Shown: positions 7,469 through 26,194 of the stretch, piece by piece | Layout of the letters: each line of letters starts with the position of its first letter | Position numbering within the stretch: position 1 is the stretch's first letter | Translations under genes and position numbers: made by a program | The notes under the pieces: model-generated | The model's database searches: none | The model's input: only the letters and a program-made list of their open reading frames with translations | Told to the model about the DNA's origin: nothing | DNA from: Streptomyces sp. NRRL B-3428 | Lineage (GTDB): Bacteria; Actinomycetota; Actinomycetes; Streptomycetales; Streptomycetaceae | Length of the DNA stretch: 64,000 bases | Assembly (NCBI GenBank): GCA_000721375.1 | Contig: JOGW01000024.1 | Span: forward strand, 1-64,000 | Direction: 5' to 3'

Positions 7469-8998
7469 CTAGCCCGGCAGTTCGGCGTGCGGCCAGCGGG
7501 AGCGGCCCTGCTCGCGTGAGCGGAGCAGGGCCAGTGTCACCAGACCCTGGCGCTCCGCGTCGGGGGCAAGGAGCTCCGGGAGCTGGGGAAGCGGAGCCAC
7601 CGCGGCGACGTCGTCGAGAACCAAGGTCAGTGGTGGGTCGAGGCGACCGGCGGATGACCGTTCGGCCATGCGCCGGCCGCGCTCGACCACGCTCGAAACG
7701 AGTGCGGTGAGCAAAGGCATGGCACCGGGCTGCGTCCGTGGATCCTCGATGGCTTCACCCACCACGTAAAGGGTGCCCCCTTCGTCCACGAAGGAATCCA
7801 AGGTGAGTGCATCAGTTCGGTTTGCTGTGCATGCCTCGCGGATGTGGATCGAGAAGAGGGAGGACAGGGCGCGGGCCGTCAACTCCTGTGCCATGTCCCG
7901 GCGTTCGGGATGCGCGGTGAGCTCGGCTTCGAGTTCGCCCGCGGATCCTGGGGCGGCCTTGGCGTGCGTACGCAGGGTGCGTACGGCGTCCTGGACCTGG
8001 CTCCCCTGGGCCCAGCGGTGGACGTGCTTGAAGGCGCGGCCGTCGATGGCGGCGGCGTGCAGATAGCTGCGCAGCAGCGTTTCCGCGGTGGCCGCTGTCG
8101 CCGCGTCCAGCTTGGCGGTCGGGCGGACCGGGGCGAGCAGCGCCTGTGCCCTCTCGCGAGCGGTCGCCTTGTCCTCGCAGCCGACCGCCGGGTTCCAGTG
8201 CATACGGGCCGGGGTGTCGCAGAGGTGGCCCGGGTCGTAGAGGAGGACCGGTCCGAGCTTGGCCCTCGCGTCCTTGGTCTCCTCCCACACCGTGGGGTCG
8301 CTGGTGACGACGACGGCTGCGCCCTCGGCGTCCTGGATCGCCTGTACGGCGAGGGGTTTACGGGTGTGGGGGGCGCCCAGGACGAGAGGGGTCCGTTGCC
8401 GTGGGACGGGGGTGCTGAGCGGCCCCTCCGGGGCCGTCGGTTCCGGCGCCTCCGGCACCAGGGGCTTCGGCTCCTCCGGTACCACGGCCTGCGGCGCCAC
8501 AGCCTCCGGTACCACGGCCTGCGGCGCCACAGTCTCCGGCGCCACAGCCTTCGGCGCCTCCGGCACCACGTGCTGCTCCGCGACTCCGTCGCGGGAAAGA
8601 TCTGATGTGCTCCGAGCCCGCACAGCCCGCCACCGAGTCCAGGTCCCCATGACGAACACCGTCAGGACCACCAGGATCATCGCCTGGCCGATGACCAGCC
8701 CCCAGAACAGCCCGTACCCGGAAAGCTCCGAGGCCGGAGTCGAGGGCCAGGCGCCCGGCAGATCGTGCGGCGCGGCCGCCAAGTGCCTTATCGCCAGGGG
8801 CGTACGGCCGAACGTGACCCCCGTGGGCCACGCCCCCCGCGCCAGCAGCCCCGCGAGCCCGGTCGCCGTCCACACCAGCACGCTGAGGCCGAGCACGAAG
8901 GCGAGCAGTCCCACAAGGAGTCCGTCGGGAATGCCGCCGGAGCCACCGGGGTCGTGCCGCCGGTCCCGGTGATACCCGCGCTCATGCTCGTACCGCAT
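7469..8998 (-). CDS. VirD4/TraG-like coupling protein of a T4SS-like locus
   Basis: A 509-aa protein with two N-terminal TM helices (about 26-50 and 96-120), a proline/alanine/valine-rich linker (145-192) made of VAPxAVxPE repeats, and a C-terminal TraG/TraM-recognition-like domain. The position of Walker A reads GAPHTRKP (208-215), lacking the usual GKT/S, whereas a Walker-B-like strand LTLVLDDVA is present about 50 residues from the end. The protein therefore may not hydrolyse ATP and is shorter at the C-terminus than classical VirD4. It is the last gene of the minus-strand T4SS-like cluster, 14 nt after the VirB4-like ATPase. Confidence 0.8.
   Translation of the reverse strand: MRYEHERGYHRDRRHDPGGSGGIPDGLLVGLLAFVLGLSVLVWTATGLAGLLARGAWPTGVTFGRTPLAIRHLAAAPHDLPGAWPSTPASELSGYGLFWGLVIGQAMILVVLTVFVMGTWTRWRAVRARSTSDLSRDGVAEQHVVPEAPKAVAPETVAPQAVVPEAVAPQAVVPEEPKPLVPEAPEPTAPEGPLSTPVPRQRTPLVLGAPHTRKPLAVQAIQDAEGAAVVVTSDPTVWEETKDARAKLGPVLLYDPGHLCDTPARMHWNPAVGCEDKATARERAQALLAPVRPTAKLDAATAATAETLLRSYLHAAAIDGRAFKHVHRWAQGSQVQDAVRTLRTHAKAAPGSAGELEAELTAHPERRDMAQELTARALSSLFSIHIREACTANRTDALTLDSFVDEGGTLYVVGEAIEDPRTQPGAMPLLTALVSSVVERGRRMAERSSAGRLDPPLTLVLDDVAAVAPLPQLPELLAPDAERQGLVTLALLRSREQGRSRWPHAELPG
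8473..8532. repeat. Exact 30-bp tandem duplication in the VirD4-like linker
   Basis: Two identical 30-bp units (8473-8502 and 8503-8532) are followed by degenerate copies. Each unit encodes ten residues of the VAPQAVVPEA type in the linker of the VirD4-like protein. The identity at DNA level points to recent slippage or unequal crossing-over. Confidence 0.9.
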
Positions 8999-9012
8999 CT
9001 AGGCCACCGTTC

Positions 9013-10446
9013 TCACGCGACCGTGGACTCTGACGACGAACCCATCTGCTGCGACCCCATCTGGTACTCCATGGCCAACGCCCGCTCCTCCGCCTCCCGT
9101 TCGGCGGCGAGCAGCTCCTCCGAAGCGGAGGCCATGGGGTCGACCGACGACTCCGTCATCGCCCGGTCGGTGTACACCAACGGCCGCTCCATCTCCGTAA
9201 CGAGATGCTTCACGACTTGGACATTGCCGTTGACGTCCCACACCGCGATGCCGGGGGTCAGCGTGGGGATGATCTCCACGGCCCAGCGCGGCAAACCGAG
9301 GACCCTTCCTGTGGCCCGTGCCTCATCAGCCTTCTGGGCGTAGATCGTGCGCGTGGAGGCCATTTTCAGGATGGCCGCAGCCTCCTTCGCGGCCGCTCCG
9401 TCCACCACGTCGGAGAGGTGGTGGACGACCGCGACGAACGAAAGGCCGAGCCGGCGGCCGAACTTCAGGAGCCGCTGGAACAGCTGGGCCACGAAGGGCG
9501 AGTTGATGATGTGCCACGCCTCTTCCACCAGGAAGATGCGCTTCTTGCGGTCGGGCCGGATCCACGTGTGCTCCAGCCACACGCCCACGATCGCCATCAG
9601 GATCGGCATCGCGATGGAGTTGCGGTCGATGTGCGACAGGTCGAAGACGATCAGCGGCGCGTCGAGGTCGATGCCCACCGTCGTCGGCCCGTCGAACATG
9701 CCTCGCAGGTCACCGTCCACCAACCGGTCGAGGACCAGGGCGACGTCCAGGCCCCAGGCCCGTACGTCCTCGAGCGCGACGTTCATCGCCTCGGCCGACT
9801 CCGGTTCCGGGTGGCGCAGTTGCTCCACGATGTCCGAGAGGACCGGCTGGCGTTCGACGATCGTCTCGTTCACGTAGGCGTGCGCGACCTTCAGGGCGAA
9901 GCCCGAGCGCTCGTCGAGGCCATGGCCCATCGCCACCTCGATGATCGTCCGGAGCAGGGCGAGCTGGCCGGTCGTGGTGATCGAGGGGTCGAGGGGGTTG
10001 AGGCGGATGCCCATGTCCAGGGCGGCCGTCGGGTCGAGCCGGATCGGCGTTATGCCCAGCTCCTGCGCGATGAGGTTCCACTCACCGACCCCGTCCTCGC
10101 CCTGTGCGTCGAGCACGACCACCTGACGGTCGCGGAATCTCAACTGCCGTAGGACATACGTCTTCTCCAGCGCCGACTTGCCGTTGCCGGACTCCCCGAG
10201 CACCAGCCAGTGCGGAGCGGGCAGCTGCTGCCCGTACAACTGGAAGGGGTCGTAGATGTAGCCCTTGCCGCTGTACACCTCGCGGCCGATGATCACGCCC
10301 GAGTCGCCGAGTCCGGGGGCGGCCGTCGGCAGGTAGACGGCCTGGGCCTGGCCGGTGGAGGTGCGGACGGGCAGGCGGGTCGTCTCCACCTTCCCGAAGA
10401 GGAAGGCGGTGAACGCGTCCGTGACGGCTGTCAGCGGATCTCGCAT
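9013..10446 (-). CDS. VirB4/TraC-like secretion ATPase
   Basis: A 477-aa cytoplasmic ATPase of the HerA/VirB4 type. Walker A is GESGNGKS (84-91), Walker B is within KRIFLVEEAWHII, and an arginine-rich segment (RLLKFGRRLGLSF...HH) follows, as in VirB4 C-terminal domains. It lacks the large N-terminal VirB4 domain; that part appears to be supplied by the upstream SCO6880-type protein. ATG at 10446 is chosen because upstream in-frame sequence overlaps other genes. It should energise assembly of, or transport through, the predicted membrane channel. Confidence 0.85.
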   Translation of the reverse strand: MRDPLTAVTDAFTAFLFGKVETTRLPVRTSTGQAQAVYLPTAAPGLGDSGVIIGREVYSGKGYIYDPFQLYGQQLPAPHWLVLGESGNGKSALEKTYVLRQLRFRDRQVVVLDAQGEDGVGEWNLIAQELGITPIRLDPTAALDMGIRLNPLDPSITTTGQLALLRTIIEVAMGHGLDERSGFALKVAHAYVNETIVERQPVLSDIVEQLRHPEPESAEAMNVALEDVRAWGLDVALVLDRLVDGDLRGMFDGPTTVGIDLDAPLIVFDLSHIDRNSIAMPILMAIVGVWLEHTWIRPDRKKRIFLVEEAWHIINSPFVAQLFQRLLKFGRRLGLSFVAVVHHLSDVVDGAAAKEAAAILKMASTRTIYAQKADEARATGRVLGLPRWAVEIIPTLTPGIAVWDVNGNVQVVKHLVTEMERPLVYTDRAMTESSVDPMASASEELLAAEREAEERALAMEYQMGSQQMGSSSESTVA

Positions 10447-10477
10447 GAAGGGCCCCTTACGACGGCTTCGGCGGCGG

Positions 10478-12028
10478 TCAGCGGCGGATGCCGGTCGCGA
10501 ACGGCAGCGTGTTGACGAAGGCCCGGTGGTGCTCGCGGTCGCACCACTCCAGCTTGAGATAGGACTTGCCGGCCGAGGCACGGATCGTCCGCTTGTCCCG
10601 CGCCAGCGCCTCGGGGTTACGGGAGGAGACGGTGATGTAGCCGACCAGGTTCACCCCGGCCGCACCGCTCGCGAGGTCCTCGCCGCGCTGGTCGAGACGG
10701 GAGTGTGCGGCGATGTCGCGCGGGTCGACCGTGCGGTTCATCTTCATCTGACGGGAGGCTTCCGCCTCGTCGTTGGTCTTCTCCGTCAGCATCCGCTCGA
10801 TGGCGATCTCCGTCGGCTCCAGATCCATCGTCACGGCCACGGTCCGGATGACGTCGGGGGTATGGACGAGCAGCGGCGCAAGGAAGTTGACGCCGACGGG
10901 CGTCATCGGCCACTCCTTCACCCAGGCCGTCGCATGGCACCAGGGCGCGCGCGTCGACGACTCCCGCGTCTTCGCCGTCAGATACGTCGCCTCGCGCGCG
11001 TCCAGCTCGGCCGGCCAGGCATTGCGCTTGGTCATGGCCTGGATGTGGTCGATCGGGTGGTCCGGGTCGTACATCGAGTGCACGAGGGAGGCGAGCCGCC
11101 CCTGCCCGAGCGGCTGCCGTACGCGGATATCGGCTTCCTGCAGACGCGAGCAGATGTCCGTCAGCTCACGCGCCATGACCACCGCGAGCCCGGCGTCCTT
11201 GTCCACCTTGCGGCCCGCGAGCGGGCGCGTGGCGCGGGCCATCGCCGAGGCCTCGGCGGCCAGTTCACGGCTGTAGTGCATGCAGGCGACCAGGTACGCA
11301 CGGTGCTGCTCGCTGCTCGTCGAGACCATCGACTGCAGCTGCTCGTACGAGTCCTGCAGCCACACCGGCGCCCTGTCGTCGCCTCGTACGGTGACGTCCT
11401 TGGCGTGGGCGTCCGGGTCGGCCGGGAGCGTACGGGCCAGCATCTGGATGCGGGTGACGAATCCGTCCCCGTTGGCCACGTGCTTGAGCAGCGTGCCGAA
11501 GCGGTCGACCAGGGCCTCCTGGTCCTCGGAGTCGCGCAGGCCGACGCCCGGCCCCTCGATCTCGATGGCCGCCGTCACCGTCCGGCGGTCCGCATGCAGC
11601 AGCACGGCGATCTCATCAGGCCCGAAGGGCGCGGCGAGCCAGGTGATCCGGCCGATGCCGGGCGGAGGGCCGACCTCGATCTCGCGGCCGTCCATGCGGA
11701 TGCCGGCCTCGGGGGCGCCCGAGCGGAAGGTGGTCCCCGTGCGCAGCGTCCGCTTGTAACTGCGGTTGATCTCGAACCACTTGAAGAAGGTCCGCCCCTT
11801 GTACGGCACGTAGACCATGGCGATCGCGAGCATCGGGAAGCCCATGAGCAGCACGATCCTGAGGCTGAGCACGGGCACGAGCAGCCCGCACATCATCCCG
11901 AGGAACGCGCCCGCGATGATCGTCGCGATCTCGCCGGTCTCACGGTTCTTGCCGATGATCGCGTTCGGCCGGGCGCGGCCGATGAGATAGGTGCGGCGGG
12001 GCGTGACCGTGTGGGACTGGGTCGTCAA
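10478..12028 (-). CDS. SCO6880-family protein (PrgI/VirB3-like plus VirB4 N-domain-like)
   Basis: A 516-aa protein with a cytoplasmic N-terminus, two close TM helices (about 35-80, AFLGMMCGLLVPVLSL... and MGFPMLAIAMVYVPYKGR) and a long soluble domain without Walker motifs. It matches the protein family named SCO6880, which accompanies VirB4-like ATPases in actinobacteria. The start is TTG at 12028, overlapping the stop of the VirB6-like gene as TTGA, so translation is coupled. It probably links the ATPase to the membrane. Confidence 0.82.
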   Translation of the reverse strand: MTTQSHTVTPRRTYLIGRARPNAIIGKNRETGEIATIIAGAFLGMMCGLLVPVLSLRIVLLMGFPMLAIAMVYVPYKGRTFFKWFEINRSYKRTLRTGTTFRSGAPEAGIRMDGREIEVGPPPGIGRITWLAAPFGPDEIAVLLHADRRTVTAAIEIEGPGVGLRDSEDQEALVDRFGTLLKHVANGDGFVTRIQMLARTLPADPDAHAKDVTVRGDDRAPVWLQDSYEQLQSMVSTSSEQHRAYLVACMHYSRELAAEASAMARATRPLAGRKVDKDAGLAVVMARELTDICSRLQEADIRVRQPLGQGRLASLVHSMYDPDHPIDHIQAMTKRNAWPAELDAREATYLTAKTRESSTRAPWCHATAWVKEWPMTPVGVNFLAPLLVHTPDVIRTVAVTMDLEPTEIAIERMLTEKTNDEAEASRQMKMNRTVDPRDIAAHSRLDQRGEDLASGAAGVNLVGYITVSSRNPEALARDKRTIRASAGKSYLKLEWCDREHHRAFVNTLPFATGIRR

Positions 12029-13344
12029 CGCCCTTCACCTCCCGAGCGGTTGCTGGTGCGGCTTGCTGTGTTTCCTGCGGGCCCGGCCCCGCGCGAGCTG
12101 TGGGTGCTCGTGCTCGGGGTCGTACGGGGTGGGGGTGCGGTGGCGCCGCCACCGCTCGACGAGCCCCGGCTGCTGTGGGCGGCCATACCGCCGGCGGCCT
12201 GGTTGGCCGGCCGGGCCTGCTGGCCGCCGCTGTCGCCACCGCGGCCGCGGGAGCTGTGCGTCTTGATGCCCTGGGAGACGAGGGCGGCGGGCGAGGAGAT
12301 GACGGCGGCGGCCTTGCCCTCGGCGCTGCTCATGATGCGGTTGTTGCGGCCCGCGGCGATCTCGTCGCCGAAGCCGGGGACGAAGCGGTAGATCATCGCG
12401 CTGGCGAAGATGGCGAGCAGGATGATGCTCAGTCCGGAGACCACGGCCGAGAAGGCGTTGGGGCCGTCCTCGTCGGCGAGCGCGCCCGCGAGACCGAGCA
12501 CGATCACGATGACCGGTTTGACGAGGATGACGGCGATCATGATCCCGGCCCAACGGCGCACGTGGGTCCAGAGGTTCTTGTCGACCAGGCCCGCGTAGAC
12601 GACGGTGCCGAGCAGGGCTCCCACGTAGAGGAGCGCGGCCCGGATGACCAGTTCGAGCCAGAGGACGCCGGCCGCGAGGATCGACACGAGCGAGACGACG
12701 ATCAGCATGATCGGCCCGCCACCGATGTCCTCACCCTTCTTGAGGGCTTCGGAGAAGGTCCCGAAGAACGTGTCCGTCTGGTTCCCGGTCGACTTCGCGA
12801 TGACATCGGTGATGCCGTCGGTGGCGGAGACGACGGTGTAGAGGATCAGCGGGGTGAAGGCGGAGGCGAGGACCGTCAGCCAGAGGAAGCCGATGGCTTC
12901 GCTGATGGCGGTGGTGAGGGGGACGCCTCGTACGGCCCGCTTGGCGACCGCGAGCAGCCACAGGAGGAGGGTGAGGATGGTGGAGGCGGCGAAGACGACG
13001 GCGTACTGCTGGAGGAACTTGTCGTTGGTGAAGTCGACGTCGGCCGTCTTGGAGACGGCGTCACTGAGCTTTTCGACGGTCCAGCCGGCGGCGTCCGCGC
13101 AGCCTCTGGCGAGGGAGGTCAGGGGGTCGAGGGTGTCTAGGGCGTCGGGGGTTTTGGGTGGGGTGGTGGAGCCGGAGCGGCCGTTTTCGCAGTACTCCTT
13201 GGCGGGCCCGTGGATGAGGTCACACGGGTCGTCGCTCGGATCCGGTGTGGGCGCGGCGAAGACCCGCGTCGCGCCCAGGACCGCTGCTGTCTGAAGTGCC
13301 AGCAGGGCAGCCGTGACGGTGGTCCACTTCCGGTCAGCGCGCAT
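12025..13344 (-). CDS. VirB6/TrbL-like polytopic membrane protein
   Basis: A 439-aa protein: signal-like helix (9-29), an extracytoplasmic segment with paired Cys residues, about six TM helices between 120 and 330, then a disordered Gly/Ser/Thr/Arg tail of about 90 residues containing HSSRG three times. Multi-helix proteins with a large loop next to VirB4 are typically VirB6/TrbL channel components. ATG at 13344 overlaps the previous gene by 11 nt. Its stop overlaps the next start. Confidence 0.78.
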   Translation of the reverse strand: MRADRKWTTVTAALLALQTAAVLGATRVFAAPTPDPSDDPCDLIHGPAKEYCENGRSGSTTPPKTPDALDTLDPLTSLARGCADAAGWTVEKLSDAVSKTADVDFTNDKFLQQYAVVFAASTILTLLLWLLAVAKRAVRGVPLTTAISEAIGFLWLTVLASAFTPLILYTVVSATDGITDVIAKSTGNQTDTFFGTFSEALKKGEDIGGGPIMLIVVSLVSILAAGVLWLELVIRAALLYVGALLGTVVYAGLVDKNLWTHVRRWAGIMIAVILVKPVIVIVLGLAGALADEDGPNAFSAVVSGLSIILLAIFASAMIYRFVPGFGDEIAAGRNNRIMSSAEGKAAAVISSPAALVSQGIKTHSSRGRGGDSGGQQARPANQAAGGMAAHSSRGSSSGGGATAPPPRTTPSTSTHSSRGAGPAGNTASRTSNRSGGEGR

Positions 13345-14182
13345 ACGTGAACCCTCCGTACTGCTCGACGGCGTCCGCGATGTCCTTGGCGCCGGAGGCA
13401 CGATCGTCGCCGGGCACGGGGGTGGGGCCGGGCTTCTGCGAGTGATTCGCGGCCTGCCAGAGACCACCCTCAACCCACTCCAGCTCCATCGTGATGGTGA
13501 ACCAGTCGCTGGTCACGGGATTCTTCGAGCCCTCTCCCGCCAGCCCGAGCAGTCCCGAGCACCAGACCTCGACGGTGGCCTTACCGTCGCCGTACTTGGT
13601 GACCTTCGTGCCGATCGGCGTCGTACGGGAGACGAACGTGAACCCCTGGGGAGTCGTGCCGTCCTCGTTGAGTCCAAGGTTCTTGAACAACTCAGGGGAG
13701 TAGGCCTTGTTGAGCGAGTCCTCAAACCTCTGCACGCTCTGGGGAGCGATCACCACGGCGAGGATGTTGTGCCGCTTGTCCTTGTCGAACATGTCGTATG
13801 AACCCAGAGCTACGGCGTAGTTGGCGGCAGCGCTCTGTGCGCCCGTACGGGACTGTTTGAAGCCCACCGGAATGCCACCGTCCTTGGCGGTGACGGCACT
13901 CTCACCGCTCGCCGCCGTCGGGTTGCCCCCCGGCTTCGAGCCCTCCGAACCGCCACCATCCCCGTCCCCACCCCCCTGATTGGCGAAGGCGATCGCCGCG
14001 ATCAGAAGGACGACCACACCGACGACCGTCACCAGAGAGCGGGAGGACCGCCCTCCACGCCGAGAGGAACCGAATGCGGAACCGTCGCCGTCCGGCAGGC
14101 GGGTGCGGGTCGTGCCCGTGCCGCCGTAGAACTCGTCCTCCGGACCGGGACGTCCGTCTTCGTAACCTCCGCCACCACTCAT
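13334..14182 (-). CDS. VirB8/TcpC-like single-pass membrane protein
   Basis: A 282-aa bitopic protein. A charged N-terminus (1-48, Gly/Asp/Arg-rich) precedes one TM helix (about 49-67, SLVTVVGVVVLLIAAIAFA), then a low-complexity linker (70-100) and a soluble extracytoplasmic domain of about 170 aa. That topology and its place beside VirB4/VirB6-like genes match VirB8/TcpC, whose outer domain has an NTF2-like fold; the fold is inferred, not seen. The stop lies inside the next gene, so expression is coupled. Confidence 0.72.
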   Translation of the reverse strand: MSGGGGYEDGRPGPEDEFYGGTGTTRTRLPDGDGSAFGSSRRGGRSSRSLVTVVGVVVLLIAAIAFANQGGGDGDGGGSEGSKPGGNPTAASGESAVTAKDGGIPVGFKQSRTGAQSAAANYAVALGSYDMFDKDKRHNILAVVIAPQSVQRFEDSLNKAYSPELFKNLGLNEDGTTPQGFTFVSRTTPIGTKVTKYGDGKATVEVWCSGLLGLAGEGSKNPVTSDWFTITMELEWVEGGLWQAANHSQKPGPTPVPGDDRASGAKDIADAVEQYGGFTYAR

Positions 14183-14384
14183 GACGCGTACGCCCCCTCA
14201 ACCGATTGCAGAACCACGCAGTACGACGGTAGCCGTGCCGGTTGCCGCGCGTACGCGGAGTGGTGACTGAACATCAGGGAGACGCAACCTCAGCCGGTGG
14301 GCACGACGGATGAATGGGAAAGTGGCCGGGAACAGTCGGTGGTGCCCCGGCAGGCAACCGTGAACTTGGGTACGGAGACGGTGT

Positions 14385-14693
14385 CTAGACAGCCATCCCG
14401 TACACGATCGTGAAGAGTGTGCCGAGCGAGCCGATGATGAAGACGCCCGTCAGGCCCGCGACGATCAGGCCCTTGCCCTGTTCCGCGCTGAAGGTGTCCC
14501 GCAGGGCCGTGGCGCCGATCCGCTGTTTCGCGGCGCCCCAGATCGCGATCCCCAGACAGATCAGAATGGCGATCGCCATGACCACTTCGATCATCACGCG
14601 CGCTTCGTTGCCCAGGCTCCCGAAGGGCCCCCAGTCTGGGGCGATCCCGCCGATGATGGTGGTGATGTCGCCCTTTTCGGCTGCCAGAAGCAT
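14385..14693 (-). CDS. Small two-helix membrane protein, VirB2/pilin-like
   Basis: A 102-aa protein with two hydrophobic helices (about 30-52, MIEVVMAIAILICLGIAIWGA, and 75-98, IVAGLTGVFIIGSLGTLFTIVYGM) separated by a short polar loop (KQRIGATALRDTFSAEQGKG). This is the layout of VirB2/TrbC-type pilins and small T4SS subunits. The ATG at 14693 (GGTGAG 4 nt upstream) is preferred; an in-frame GTG at 14702 has AAGGGG ahead of it. It is the first gene of the main T4SS-like operon, 202 nt from the VirB8-like gene. Confidence 0.78.
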   Translation of the reverse strand: MLLAAEKGDITTIIGGIAPDWGPFGSLGNEARVMIEVVMAIAILICLGIAIWGAAKQRIGATALRDTFSAEQGKGLIVAGLTGVFIIGSLGTLFTIVYGMAV

Positions 14694-14839
14694 GTAACTC
14701 ACCGCCCCTTTATGGGTAGTTCCGCACCCCCTGCCGCTGCGCAGAGGCCAGGCATCATTGTCTCCGAGATTTGCCCGACGCATGTCGACTTGCGGCCATC
14801 AGTTGTCAGAGTTGCCCCGGAGGCGTGGCGGACCGACGA

Positions 14840-14881
14840 ATACCGCCCGGTGCTCCCCCTTGGAGGAGACCCGGGCGGTAT
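14840..14881. other. Long stem-loop in the intergenic region 14694-14994
   Basis: Perfect 10-bp arms ATACCGCCCG and CGGGCGGTAT enclose an inner CTCC/GGAG pairing. No credible gene lies in this 301-bp gap; ORFs here are short and lack family features. No T-run follows on either strand, so it may be a processing or regulatory structure in the 5' leader of the pilin-like operon or a terminator for the upstream gene at 14995-15651. Confidence 0.6.
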
Positions 14882-14994
14882 ACGACGTTCCGTATGGTCA
14901 CTCTGTGTATCACGCCTGGTCACGTGGGGCAATGAGCTGACGTGGCGCCAGATCTCGTGCCCTTTGCGGCCCTGCCTCGTTACCTGGGGTCGCG

Positions 14995-15651
14995 TCAGCT
15001 TCGTGCGTACGAGCCGAGGCCGACGAGGCAGTAGACGTACTCGTTGATGGTGGCGCCGTTCAGGGTCTGGCGTGAGGAGTACGCGTACTCGGTCTTGGGG
15101 TTCGCGTCGCAGGAGCTCATGTCCGAGGTGAACGGGAAGGTCTGGATCACCTTGTAGTGCGCGTCGGACGCGGAGCAGTCGACTTCCTCGACGCCGCTGG
15201 CGTCCTGCGGGGTGTCCGAGTTCGGCAGTTCCCCGTTCAGGCAGGTGCCCTCGGTGAACGGGTCCGGGGGAGCGCTCTCGGTGGGCGCCTCGGTGCCGGG
15301 GGTCGTGGGTGCGGAGGAGGTGACCGGCGGGGTGGAGGTGCCCCCCTTGCTGGCGGCCGGGTCGTCGTCGTCCCCGTTGGCCATGATGACGGCGCCCACG
15401 ATCACCGCGACGACCACGAGCAGCGCGCCGAGGCAGCCCCAGGCGGGCTTGGGCCTGCCGGTGTTGGGCTGGTTGCCCACCGCGATCTTGAGGAGCACCT
15501 GGTTGCCGGCGAGGTAGGCCGGGATCATGTCGCCGTTCTGGCAGGGCGGTACCTGGATCTGGATGGGTGTGCCCCGGTCGTTCAGGGTGAACGTCACGCC
15601 GGTGGCGGCCTGTTGCGGTGTGAGCGTGATGGGTATGACCTGCGGCGCCAT
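14995..15651 (-). CDS. Membrane protein with DnaJ C-terminal-like head and Cys-containing outer domain
   Basis: A 218-aa bitopic protein. Residues 1-60 (ITLTPQQAATG...GTPIQIQVPPCQNGDMIPA) resemble the substrate-binding strands of a DnaJ C-terminal domain. One TM helix follows (about 74-93, LGALLVVVAVIVGAVIMA), then a Ser/Thr/Pro linker and an extracytoplasmic domain with several Cys (CLNGELP, VDCSASDAHY, SSCDANP, VYCLVGLG), likely disulfide-bonded. Upstream of the T4SS-like genes on the same strand; function unknown, possibly an accessory surface component. Confidence 0.75.
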   Translation of the reverse strand: MAPQVIPITLTPQQAATGVTFTLNDRGTPIQIQVPPCQNGDMIPAYLAGNQVLLKIAVGNQPNTGRPKPAWGCLGALLVVVAVIVGAVIMANGDDDDPAASKGGTSTPPVTSSAPTTPGTEAPTESAPPDPFTEGTCLNGELPNSDTPQDASGVEEVDCSASDAHYKVIQTFPFTSDMSSCDANPKTEYAYSSRQTLNGATINEYVYCLVGLGSYARS

Positions 15652-15795: not shown

Positions 15796-18549
15796 CTAGC
15801 GGCGGAGTGTGTCCGGCCGTGAGGGGTCGAGCACCCGGGCCAGGCCGGCCCGCGATGTCACCCCCAACTTGGCGGACAGCCGGTACAGATGGCCCTCCAC
15901 CGTACGGACGGAGAGCGTCAGCCGGTCGGCGATCTGCTGGTTGGACAGGCCGGCCGCCGCGAGCAGCGCGATCTCGCGTTCGCGGCGGGTCAGCGGGAGG
16001 GGCCGGGCGAAGGCGAGCAGCGCCGGGGTGCGTAGACCCTGGCAGGAGGCCGCGAGACGGTCGGCGTCCGCCGCCGATGAGCTCGCCGATCCCGCACGCC
16101 CGGCGCGCTGGAACGCATCGGCGGCCTGCGCGTGGGCGTCCGCCGCGGCGGCCGGGGCGCCGCTGTCGAGGAGAGCCAGCGCGGCCGCCCGCAGCTCGTC
16201 CCCCGAGTCCGCGTGCAGGGCCGCGGCATGGCGGGCGGCAGCCTGGGCCGCGGGGCCGTCGACCTGACGGGCCAGCTCCGCGAGCCGCCGGGATGTCAGC
16301 GCGCTCGCGTCCCCCAGCCGCACCGCGCAATGCAGAGCCCACACCTCGTACGCGAAATGCCCGCTCGAAGCCGCCAGTTGGGCGCCCGCGCGCGCATGGG
16401 ACACCGCCTCGCTCAGCGCGCCCTCCGCCGCCGCCGTCCACGCCCGCGTCACCCACAGCTCCGGATCGCGTACGGCGAAGACAGGGCTGTGCACGGATTC
16501 GGCCTGGGTGAGGGTGTGCCGGGCCTGTTCGCGCTGTCCGAGGAGGGCGCGGGCGCGGGCCAGGGCCACCAGGGCGAACTGGAGGAAGCCGCCCGCGGTG
16601 CCGTGTTCGCGCAGTCCGTCGACCGCTTCGCGCAGTATCCGTTCGGCGTCGACGGGCCTGCCCTGTTCGAGTACGGCCTCCGCGACGACGCAGTGCGTCA
16701 GCTCGGGGCCGAAGGGGATGTTGACGTCGCCTTCGCGGTACGTCTCGGCCAGCGCCACCGCCTCGGCCGTGCGGCCGCAGAGCCACTGGCCGACGACCTC
16801 GGCGAGGGACAACGGGATGCGGAGATAGCCCAGTTGCCACGAGCGCGACATCGCGGCGCGCGCCTGGGCCGCCGCTTCCTGCGCGGGGCCTGCGCGGCCG
16901 CTGACGGAGTGGGCGATGGTGCGGGTCAGCTGGCCGAGCAGGACCGGTTCGGGCTCGGCCGCCTCCACTGCCGTATCGGCGTCGCGCAGGGCGGCCGCGT
17001 CCCCGGTCGCGCCGAGGACGCCGAGGTAGGAGCGGATGCCGGCGAGGTGGCGGTGCGCGCCGGGGTCACGCAGCCGGGCGGCGGTCGCCGCGAGCGCGTC
17101 ATGGGCCGCCGGGGCGTCCTGGGTGATGAGCGCCAGACCGATGATCCGGGGTACGGCGGCTTGGACGTGTTCGAGGTCGGTGCGCGCGAGCTGGGCCAAC
17201 TTGCCGAACTCGACGGCGAGTTCCTCCGTACGGGTGTGGGCCGCGACGGCCGTGGCGACGACCAGCTGCGCGGGGAATCCGGCGCCCGCCGCAAGTGCGG
17301 CGCGTGCGAGGCGTTCGGCCAGGGGCATGTCGGCGAGGAGGGCCGCCTGCTGGGCCGAGCGCAGGGAGAGCTCGGCGTCCGGCGGCAGGTCGGAGTCGAG
17401 GCGGAGCAGGGCGCGGCGCAGCCGGGGTGCGGTGGGTTCGTCCCACGGGTCGCCGCCGCTGATGCTGTCGGTGCGGATCGCACCGTACGGGCCGCGGCGG
17501 GCTGCCGCGCGCTCCGGGTCGAGGGCGCGGGCCATGGTGCCGCCGGGTTCGAGTGCGCGGGCCAGCGTGCCGCGCAGGCGGCGGCCGCGCAGGGTGCCGA
17601 GACCGGCGCGGCGGACCTCGCCGTACAACGGGTGAGCGAGGCGGGCGTTGAGCCGGCCGTCCTCGTCCTGGGTGACGGTGACCAGGCCCCGTTCCTCCGC
17701 GGCCTCGACCGGGTCGCTCGCGCCGGTCGGGACCAGGCGGCTCAGGAGGCGGATGTCGAGGGGTTCGCCGAGCGCGAGGAGGTCGATGATCTCGGCCACG
17801 GACTCGGGGAGTTCGCCCATCCGGGCCGCGATCAGGTCGACCAGTGTGGGCGTCACCATCGGGACGCCCTTCCAGCGCCAGGTCTCCCCGGCCTTGTACA
17901 GGCCGCCGGAGGCCCGTTCGCCCTCGACGAGGTGGCGCAGGAAGAGTGCGTTGCCTTCGGTGAGGCGCCACAGCCGCTTCGTCGACACGGAGTCCACCGG
18001 GCCGCCGAGCACGGCGGCGAGCAGCTGTCCGCACTCCGCGAGGTCGAGTGCGGGCAGGTCGAGTCGGTGCAGCTGACCGCTGCGCCACAGCCCGGACACG
18101 GCCTCCGGTACGGGCTCGTCGGAGCGGATCGTCAGGACCAGGCCTGCCGCGCCTTCGAGGGTCAACTGCTGGACGAGGAGGGCGGAGAGGTCGTCGAGGA
18201 GATGGGCGTCGTCGACGCCCAGGACCAGCTGCTTGTTCGCGCCTTGCGATCCTCGGAGCAGCGCTTGGCGTGTGCGGTGCAGGGCCTCGGCCGCCCCGGT
18301 GTCCACGGGGGCGGCCCACGCGGCGAACGCGCCGAGCGGGACGGCCCGGGCGCCCGGGGTGCCGGCGGCCCAGTGCGTGATCGCGCCACGGCGGGCCGCT
18401 TCGGCCACGGCCTCTCTGGCCAGGCGGGTCTTGCCGACACCCGGCGGTGCTATCAGGACGGTTCCGGCGGGGGTGCGCCCCGGCCTGAGCGTTCCCGCGA
18501 TGGTACGTAAGTGTTCGGAGCGGCCGGTAAGCGGCCAATCGGGCGTCAC
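15796..18549 (-). CDS. LAL-type (LuxR) transcriptional regulator with AAA ATPase domain
   Basis: A 917-aa STAND/LAL regulator. The N-terminal ATPase has Walker A APPGVGKT and a Walker-B-like LVLGVDDAHLLDDL; the middle is helical and TPR-like; the last 60 residues are a LuxR HTH (LTRREREIALLAAAGLSNQQ followed by RTVEGHLYRL). These proteins act as large signal-integrating switches that activate secondary metabolism or sugar genes. It lies between the T4SS-like locus and a divergent secreted-protein gene; the 225-bp divergent region contains a perfect palindrome. Confidence 0.92.
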   Translation of the reverse strand: MTPDWPLTGRSEHLRTIAGTLRPGRTPAGTVLIAPPGVGKTRLAREAVAEAARRGAITHWAAGTPGARAVPLGAFAAWAAPVDTGAAEALHRTRQALLRGSQGANKQLVLGVDDAHLLDDLSALLVQQLTLEGAAGLVLTIRSDEPVPEAVSGLWRSGQLHRLDLPALDLAECGQLLAAVLGGPVDSVSTKRLWRLTEGNALFLRHLVEGERASGGLYKAGETWRWKGVPMVTPTLVDLIAARMGELPESVAEIIDLLALGEPLDIRLLSRLVPTGASDPVEAAEERGLVTVTQDEDGRLNARLAHPLYGEVRRAGLGTLRGRRLRGTLARALEPGGTMARALDPERAAARRGPYGAIRTDSISGGDPWDEPTAPRLRRALLRLDSDLPPDAELSLRSAQQAALLADMPLAERLARAALAAGAGFPAQLVVATAVAAHTRTEELAVEFGKLAQLARTDLEHVQAAVPRIIGLALITQDAPAAHDALAATAARLRDPGAHRHLAGIRSYLGVLGATGDAAALRDADTAVEAAEPEPVLLGQLTRTIAHSVSGRAGPAQEAAAQARAAMSRSWQLGYLRIPLSLAEVVGQWLCGRTAEAVALAETYREGDVNIPFGPELTHCVVAEAVLEQGRPVDAERILREAVDGLREHGTAGGFLQFALVALARARALLGQREQARHTLTQAESVHSPVFAVRDPELWVTRAWTAAAEGALSEAVSHARAGAQLAASSGHFAYEVWALHCAVRLGDASALTSRRLAELARQVDGPAAQAAARHAAALHADSGDELRAAALALLDSGAPAAAADAHAQAADAFQRAGRAGSASSSAADADRLAASCQGLRTPALLAFARPLPLTRREREIALLAAAGLSNQQIADRLTLSVRTVEGHLYRLSAKLGVTSRAGLARVLDPSRPDTLRR

Positions 18550-25162: not shown

Positions 25163-26194
25163 ATGCGTAAGGCCTGGCTGGTCACGGCCGCTCTCGTGAG
25201 CGGCGGACTCGGCTTCGTACTGCTGCTCGTCGTCGGCACCTTCATGGTCGCGGGAAACCTGGCGAACGGGGTGGGCAAGGGCGCCGTCGGCCTCGCCAAG
25301 GGCGCCGTACCGGCCGCGTACCAGCCGCTCGTACAGAAGTGGGGCAATCTCTGCCCGGCCATCAACCCGGCGCTGCTCGCCGCGCAGTTGTACCAGGAGA
25401 GCGGCTGGAACCCGAAGGCGCAGAGTCCCGCGGCGGCGCAGGGGATAGCGCAGTTCATCCCCGGCACCTGGGCCACCCACGGTGTGGACGGGGACAAGGA
25501 CGGCGACCGCGATGTCTGGGATCCCAATGACGCGATCCCGTCGGCCGCTTCGTACGACTGCAAGCTCGCGGGCTATGTGAAGGACGCCCCGGGCAACCCG
25601 ACGCACAACATGCTGGCCGCGTACAACGCGGGGGCGTATGCCGTCATCAAGTACGGCGGGGTGCCGCCGTATCGCGAGACACAGAACTACGTGAAGACCA
25701 TCACGACCCTGGAGAAGAGCTTCGCGCGCCCGGTTGGCCGAGTAAGTCCCTCCCGGCAGGCGGCCGGCGCGATCTCGTTCGCGCAGGAGCAGCTCGGTAC
25801 GGAGTATCTGTGGGGCGGTGACGGCACCGCGGCGGACGGCGGACGCTTCGACTGCTCGGGTCTGACGAAGGCCGCGTACGACACGGTCGGGGTGGAGCTG
25901 CCGCGCGTGGCCAACGACCAGTACAACGCGGGCCCGCATCCCAAGCGCAGCGAGCTTCTCCCCGGTGACCTGGTGTTCTTCTCGGACGACCTCACCAATT
26001 CACGGGCCATCCGGCACGTCGGCATCTATGTCGGCGGCGGGTACATGATCGATGCGCCGCGGCCCGGAGCGGTGATCCGTTTCGCGCCGGTCGACACCCC
26101 CGACTACTTCGGTGCGACCCGGGTCACGCAGGACGGCGCGAAGGCGCTCGAGGAGGCTCGCGAGGGGATTGCGGAGGCGTCCTCCAGCACGTGA
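25163..26194 (+). CDS. Bifunctional cell-wall hydrolase: SLT lysozyme-like plus NlpC/P60
   Basis: A 343-aa membrane-anchored enzyme. One TM helix (7-30) is followed by a lytic transglycosylase domain (about 60-175; catalytic Glu79 in YQESGWNP, then AQGIAQFIPGTW, MLAAYNAG) and a C-terminal NlpC/P60 domain (about 198-325; Cys231 in FDCSGL, His285 in RHVGIYVG). The pairing equals CwlT/Tn916 Orf14-type hydrolases, which open peptidoglycan for Gram-positive T4SSs. It is 10 kb from the T4SS-like cluster on the other strand; a functional link is an inference. ATG at 25163 is preferred over GTG at 25142. Confidence 0.92.
   Translation: MRKAWLVTAALVSGGLGFVLLLVVGTFMVAGNLANGVGKGAVGLAKGAVPAAYQPLVQKWGNLCPAINPALLAAQLYQESGWNPKAQSPAAAQGIAQFIPGTWATHGVDGDKDGDRDVWDPNDAIPSAASYDCKLAGYVKDAPGNPTHNMLAAYNAGAYAVIKYGGVPPYRETQNYVKTITTLEKSFARPVGRVSPSRQAAGAISFAQEQLGTEYLWGGDGTAADGGRFDCSGLTKAAYDTVGVELPRVANDQYNAGPHPKRSELLPGDLVFFSDDLTNSRAIRHVGIYVGGGYMIDAPRPGAVIRFAPVDTPDYFGATRVTQDGAKALEEAREGIAEASSST

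Follow-up and report, generated by a model that had tools for sequence, protein, structure and literature searches.

Type IV secretion systems (T4SSs) without a coupling protein are known, for example Ptl of Bordetella and VirB of Brucella. The subject of this report is a run of six genes at 7469-14783, on the minus strand, of a 64,000-nucleotide stretch of DNA from Streptomyces sp. NRRL B-3428 (contig JOGW01000024.1, positions 1 to 64,000; "the window" is this whole stretch), and its closest described counterpart is the cmdABCDEF operon (SCO4126-4131) of Streptomyces coelicolor. That operon was described in 2009 as six genes on a single transcript, five of them for predicted membrane proteins and one for CmdB, an ATPase bound to the membrane, and its authors had by then pointed out the resemblance to VirB4 and considered a "type IV-like channel" (PMC2782261). 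The operon is needed for normal sporulation in S. coelicolor, S. lividans and S. avermitilis (PMC2782261). We conclude that the window locus is the cmd operon and that cmd, together with the wall hydrolase gene tgdA, probably forms a T4SS-derived machine of the aerial-hypha envelope, one that has lost DNA loading and exports or assembles an envelope component.

Three sets of described systems invite comparison. The conjugative T4SSs of Gram-positive bacteria and Streptomyces (SLP2.19-23, and the minimal systems of the pIP501/pCF10 type) have in common with cmd the VirB4, VirB8 and VirB1-type parts and a VirD4-family protein, and SLP2.21-23 show 22-33% similarity to SCO4127-4129 (PMC2782261). 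Unlike these systems, cmd has no relaxase that we could find nearby, its coupling protein is without a P-loop, and it is chromosomal and nearly universal in its family; transfer of plasmid pQC542 was unaffected by cmd deletion (PMC2782261). In the clusters of the SCO6871-6884 type, SCO6878, SCO6880 and SCO6881 resemble CmdB, CmdC and CmdD, and, according to unpublished data cited in the same paper, strains null for either SCO6878 or SCO6881 showed no visible defect (PMC2782261). Finally, conjugation of the TraB/FtsK type, found in Streptomyces plasmids and actinomycete integrative and conjugative elements, resembles Cmd in using a membrane ATPase in mycelial actinobacteria, but TraB is an FtsK-like pump for double-stranded DNA while CmdB is an ATPase of the VirB4 type whose N-domain is a protein of its own.

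The window locus is identified as cmd because its gene order, strand and CmdB motifs agree with 59 named genome records and with the published primers. Changes of the CmdB lysines at 90 and 404 abolish complementation (PMC2782261); the primers given there encode, by our own reading, ESGNG-R-SALE and VQVV-R-HLIT, with labels that look interchanged with respect to the positions. In the window, CmdB has ESGNGKSALE, whose Walker A lysine is residue 90, and VQVVKHLVT, whose lysine is residue 413. A 31-base pattern taken from one published primer matched the 59 named records, a set that did not include S. coelicolor A3(2), and the cmd genes have the window's order and relative strand in all 59, as far as the fetched stretches reach. 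All six genes are visible in 20 of these records, and in two (L031 and L066) a divergent hydrolase gene also lies upstream of cmdF. The sequence-only reading of this DNA had missed that the locus was already in print.

The open reading frame (ORF) list confirms a minus-strand run that is read from cmdF to cmdA. From cmdE to cmdA the coding regions overlap or lie no more than about 30 bases apart, and cmdF stands about 200 bases upstream; the start positions as read here include 10446 for cmdB and 13344 for cmdD. CmdB (SCO4127 orthologue, 9013-10446), with the Walker A motif GESGNGKS, is a VirB4-type C-terminal ATPase: it scores above cut-off against AAA_10 (47.7 bits) and against P-loop_TraG (31.4 bits), while its matches to VirB4-type NCBIfam models fall far under theirs. 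The P-loop is kept in 92 of 92 CmdB sequences, many of which are close relatives, so that the rows are not independent. CmdC (SCO4128 orthologue, 10478-12028) belongs to the SCO6880 family (179.6 bits, cut-off 60), and in fold tests its predicted structure is the N-terminal half of VirB4 behind a two-helix hairpin; a comparison of single sequences of CmdC and EccE gave no support for a relationship. As modelled, CmdC and CmdB together look like a split VirB4, in keeping with what had been proposed from the letters of the DNA.

The remaining membrane proteins fit the same plan to different degrees. CmdE (SCO4130 orthologue, 13334-14182) has one membrane helix and a predicted structure of the VirB8 type, as expected of the bitopic scaffold of a T4SS, and its relatives match PF26526/DUF8175; comparison of single sequences with a 695-residue protein from a locus of another family, f18 (see below), gave no support. 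CmdD (SCO4129 orthologue, 12025-13344) is polytopic, with six predicted membrane segments, and occupies the VirB6 gene position; it is homologous to a protein of one other-family cluster. CmdF (SCO4131 orthologue, 14385-14783) is small, with two predicted membrane helices, and occupies the VirB2 position. No VirB6 or VirB2 profile matched CmdD or CmdF, a profile comparison of CmdF with DUF6112 gave no support, and the sole hint of a pilin is a sub-threshold T4SS_pilin match in a CmdF relative (16.0 bits, cut-off 26.6). PDB sequence profiles returned nothing meaningful for CmdC, CmdD, CmdE or CmdF. The earlier reading would fall if the VirB8-, VirB6- and VirB2-like proteins did not resemble T4SS parts; the predicted fold of CmdE supplies that resemblance for VirB8, whereas the VirB6- and VirB2-like labels are tentative, drawn from topology, gene position and, for CmdD, the homologue. 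The C-terminal tail of CmdD also contains three HSSRG repeats, and the alignment consensus has similar HS.RG motifs.

CmdA (SCO4126 orthologue, 7469-8998), the last gene product, has two predicted membrane segments followed by a domain of the VirD4/TraG type. Over 349 columns of the motor domain, hhalign pairs it (probability 100, E 2.8e-50) with a VirD4/TraG protein from a different actinobacterial cluster; this reference protein exceeds the T4SS-DNA_transf and TraG-D_C cut-offs and has the P-loop GPPRSGKG. CmdA's own TraG-D_C match is under cut-off (13.4 versus 22 bits), and against PDB sequence profiles its best rows are unrelated, with TrwB weak at E 0.064. The VirD4-like label thus holds for descent, but CmdA has no GK[ST] P-loop. 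In the window the P-loop is degenerate (GAPHTRKP) and Walker B is altered to LDD; [AG]xxxxGK[ST] occurs in 0 of 57 CmdA sequences from cmd loci, again largely close relatives and not independent counts, with a few rows retaining GK and then R, and Walker B reads LDD in 45 of the 57. The part from Walker B onward is short as well, with a median of 48 residues where it was found, against 167 in a sister sequence described below (L133). To judge from its motifs, CmdA would be a remnant of a coupling protein that has lost ATP binding. Deleting cmdA alone made no apparent difference (PMC2782261), which fits the loss of the P-loop, and a disarmed CmdA may explain that absent phenotype.

What would let such a complex through the wall? 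The product of the plus-strand gene at 25163-26194 (start read as 25163) has SLT and NLPC_P60 domains, as a VirB1-type wall hydrolase should, and by eye an N-terminal hydrophobic stretch; it was assigned to SCO4132/tgdA by position and annotation. The prediction of a CwlT-type hydrolase here was therefore sound. Of the 150 genomes of the window's family, 146 have a homologue (E<=1e-60). The hydrolase and cmdB share a contig in 135 of the 145 genomes compared, are divergent in all 135, and lie at most 15 kb apart in 133 of them (median 4.6 kb). The distance is 14.7 kb in the window, because ordinary genes lie between: an LppU-like gene and genes for a LuxR-type regulator, a DUF6294 protein, a beta-lactamase-fold protein, a methyltransferase, an ABC transporter and FtsX. 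The window thus has in common with S. coelicolor cmd and tgdA the gene order, the CmdB motifs and the conserved divergent hydrolase, and differs in the roughly 10 kb of ordinary chromosomal genes between cmdF and the hydrolase. In PMC6585502, actinorhodin overproduction in tgdA mutants is reported to equal that in mutants of cmdBCDEF and of SCO5677. Given the adjacency and the shared antibiotic phenotype, TgdA is the likely VirB1-type partner of Cmd. A search for SCO5677, a third gene with this phenotype, turned up just that paper.

The distribution of the locus bears on whether it is a mobile element at all. CmdB was found in 149 of the 150 family genomes, the sole miss being 71% complete, and the SCO6880-family profile exceeds its cut-off in 149 of 150. 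Among 296 genomes of the class, only the window's family and one genome of another family (G156) have a CmdB with at least 77% identity; a second copy in genome G048 shows 50% identity, and all other matches listed show 37% or less. In the CmdB tree, 18 family rows, the window included, and G156 form one clade of 19 with support of 100/96 and short branches. One match (G104:C23:2416-3873) comes in two pieces 54 bases apart in one open frame, apparently through an in-frame insertion of some 18 codons and not a break. GC content over the operon is 0.67-0.70 in 2-kb bins, inside the 0.66-0.76 of the whole window. Near-universal presence, a constant hydrolase neighbour and the single clade uphold the vertical inheritance claimed before, as the GC values do the claim of matching base composition, and the best reading is that cmd is a chromosomal, vertically inherited T4SS derivative of mycelial actinobacterial lineages.

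A defective or still active integrative and conjugative element (ICE), with the cluster as its decayed or cryptic conjugation module, is the obvious rival. It can draw on membership of the same gene family as the transfer genes of plasmid SLP2 (PMC2782261), on the G048 copy, which has a P-loop-bearing coupling protein and a TrwC relaxase on its contig, and on a survey that counts as defective ICEs those VirB4 loci whose relaxase, coupling protein or integrase has been lost (PMC9513070). Against this stand the family-wide conservation of CmdB and of its nearby hydrolase, the invariant CmdB P-loop and the clear mutant phenotypes (PMC2782261). Moreover, a protein scan that covered the 24 larger of the 30 ORFs listed for the first 32 kb of the window found no integrase, relaxase or phage protein, and the window has no tRNA gene. 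TrwC (MOBF) relaxases are absent from the strain's own genome, whose one Relaxase (PF03432) match is on another contig (C6), and none of the 54 TrwC-carrying family genomes has TrwC within 100 kb of cmdB, these two being the relaxase families searched. The absence of nearby relaxase, integrase and phage genes asserted earlier stands within these limits. An ICE or plasmid remnant was rejected on the family-wide conservation and the lack of a nearby TrwC; already largely refuted by that conservation, the idea is now highly improbable. The same survey reports a defective ICE near the chromosome middle in all of 11 closely related Streptomyces strains (PMC9513070), which might, at a guess, be the cmd locus, and ICE screens based on VirB4 may label the core cmd locus a defective element.

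Distance from TrwC is not decisive as a general test of domestication, most copies of the SCO6880 type also being far from TrwC. When places were compared, SCO6880 matches below about 210 bits were cmd copies, and a second class above 250 bits was patchy and multi-copy, with 105 places in 67 of the 150 family genomes, in contrast to the one near-universal cmdB. Only 8 of these 105 common, multi-copy clusters lie within 50 kb of a TrwC relaxase.

Two relatives outside the core family locus are informative. The G048 cluster (L133, on the 366-kb contig C7) has the cmd gene order F-E-D-C-B-A, and in the alignment its CmdB shares 48% identity with that of the window. Its coupling protein, the only sister sequence, exceeds both Pfam cut-offs and has a GK[ST] P-loop; its divergent protein gives weak NlpC and SLT matches under cut-off; and TrwC lies about 48 kb away (L148:14308-19137; L133:10008-11822). 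L133 offers a plausible picture of the cmd ancestor and a useful outgroup for the domesticated operon, though its sister place in the tree is weak (93/52), where long branches meet. The second relative is in family f18, which we take to be the Frankiaceae because a CmdC-like protein there (L139) is 97% identical to a Pseudofrankia protein. A CmdB match is present in 32 of 35 f18 genomes; the hydrolase shares a contig with 21 of the 31 core copies, and in all 21 it is divergent and 7.7-9.5 kb away. None of the core copies is within 100 kb of TrwC, against 5 of 9 second copies within 25 kb, and four f18 stretches with a CmdB match (L137, L139, L140, L141) have no CmdA match. A second mycelial family thus has a distant cmd homologue, far from relaxases and with the same divergent hydrolase.

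What, then, does the machine do? When cmd is deleted, sporulation is late and poor, branching is abnormal, aerial hyphae are collapsed, 6-8% of spores are anucleate as against 0.1% in wild type, and actII-orf4 is transcribed early; cmdB transcription rises at aerial growth (PMC2782261). The parts suggest, from sequences and models, a DNA-transfer machine kept for the organism's own development after loss of its DNA-loading components; most likely it no longer loads DNA, since no relaxase was found nearby and no working coupling ATPase is recognisable. In the scheme we propose, the membrane hairpin and VirB4 N-domain of CmdC would anchor a CmdB ATPase ring at the inner face of the membrane, with CmdD as a VirB6-like channel part, CmdE as a VirB8-like part reaching into the wall, and CmdF as a VirB2-like small subunit. 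TgdA would cut peptidoglycan and so let the complex cross the wall, and CmdA would persist as a remnant that does not bind ATP. In aerial hyphae the machine probably exports or assembles an envelope component, either some protein or a filament or pore made of CmdF; its loss disturbs branching, septation, chromosome distribution and antibiotic timing, the segregation defect presumably being secondary.

Xie et al. instead suggested a DNA pump: derived from a T4SS, the complex would work alongside FtsK and ParAB at sporulation septa, clearing chromosomal DNA from them or segregating it. The anucleate spores and uneven nucleoids of the mutant, and the RecA/FtsK-type motor domain that the authors predicted in CmdB (PMC2782261), are what such a pump would lead one to expect. 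Yet the protein that loads DNA in T4SSs is here without a P-loop, septation defects can themselves lead to segregation defects, and tgdA points to the envelope, as do the abnormal branching and the collapsed hyphae; we regard a pump as unlikely. More doubtful is a stationary conduit at cross-walls or hyphal junctions, passing small molecules or signals with no dedicated cargo. A conduit is favoured by the VirB8, VirB4-N and VirB6-position parts, by the accompanying wall hydrolase and by the homologous locus of another mycelial family, but the conserved CmdB P-loop and the non-complementing lysine mutants (PMC2782261) imply ATP-driven work. Protein or filament export ranks first among these candidate roles, none of them proven, with the chromosome pump second and the passive conduit third.

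Perhaps, and we put this forward tentatively, cmd represents a distinct T4SS class: chromosomal, uncoupled from DNA (no relaxase, a dead or absent coupling ATPase), present in at least two families of mycelial sporulating actinobacteria, and devoted to the morphogenesis of aerial hyphae; TgdA would open the wall, and what is exported or assembled would be CmdF or another protein. The operon and the channel idea were in print before (PMC2782261); as far as literature listings show, what is new is the assignment of parts by fold, the loss of the coupling ATPase, the pairing with the hydrolase throughout the family and the counterpart in the Frankiaceae. No later paper on the cmd mechanism was among the matches listed in the open-licence literature, and none of "Cmd", "SCO" and "Frankia" occurs as a whole word in the text of a T4SS nomenclature review from 2025. 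The VirB8 and split VirB4 roles, the disarmed coupling protein and the link to tgdA turn a loose idea into testable parts.

The gene at 14995-15651 (minus strand), upstream of cmdF, had been counted as a seventh member of the machine and as a DnaJ-C-like membrane protein. It matches the LppU/SCO3897 profile instead (42.4 bits, cut-off 25) and has no Pfam match; because tblastn found no counterpart across the 59 named cmd loci, it was rejected as an operon member, so that six of the seven proposed genes, those of cmdABCDEF with their T4SS-like parts, remain. Just upstream of it, at 15796-18549, is a gene for an AAA/LuxR-type regulator that is AbsR2-like (220.8 bits, far under the cut-off of 850).

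Two other loci in the strain's genome were considered as second cmd copies and set aside. A weak SCO6880 match on contig C28 (20.8 bits) is an EccE protein (PF11203, 103.5 bits) in a locus resembling type VII secretion, with EccE and, by eye, an EccC-type ATPase and WXG-like proteins; neither of these last two occurs among the 24 scanned window proteins. An AAA_10 match on contig C2 belongs, by eye, to a separate VirB4/VirD4 pair. That region (C2:763500-783400; L011:6769-11042) appears to encode an 800-residue VirD4-like and a 627-residue VirB4-like protein, both with P-loop motifs, and is a candidate T4SS-type mobile element.

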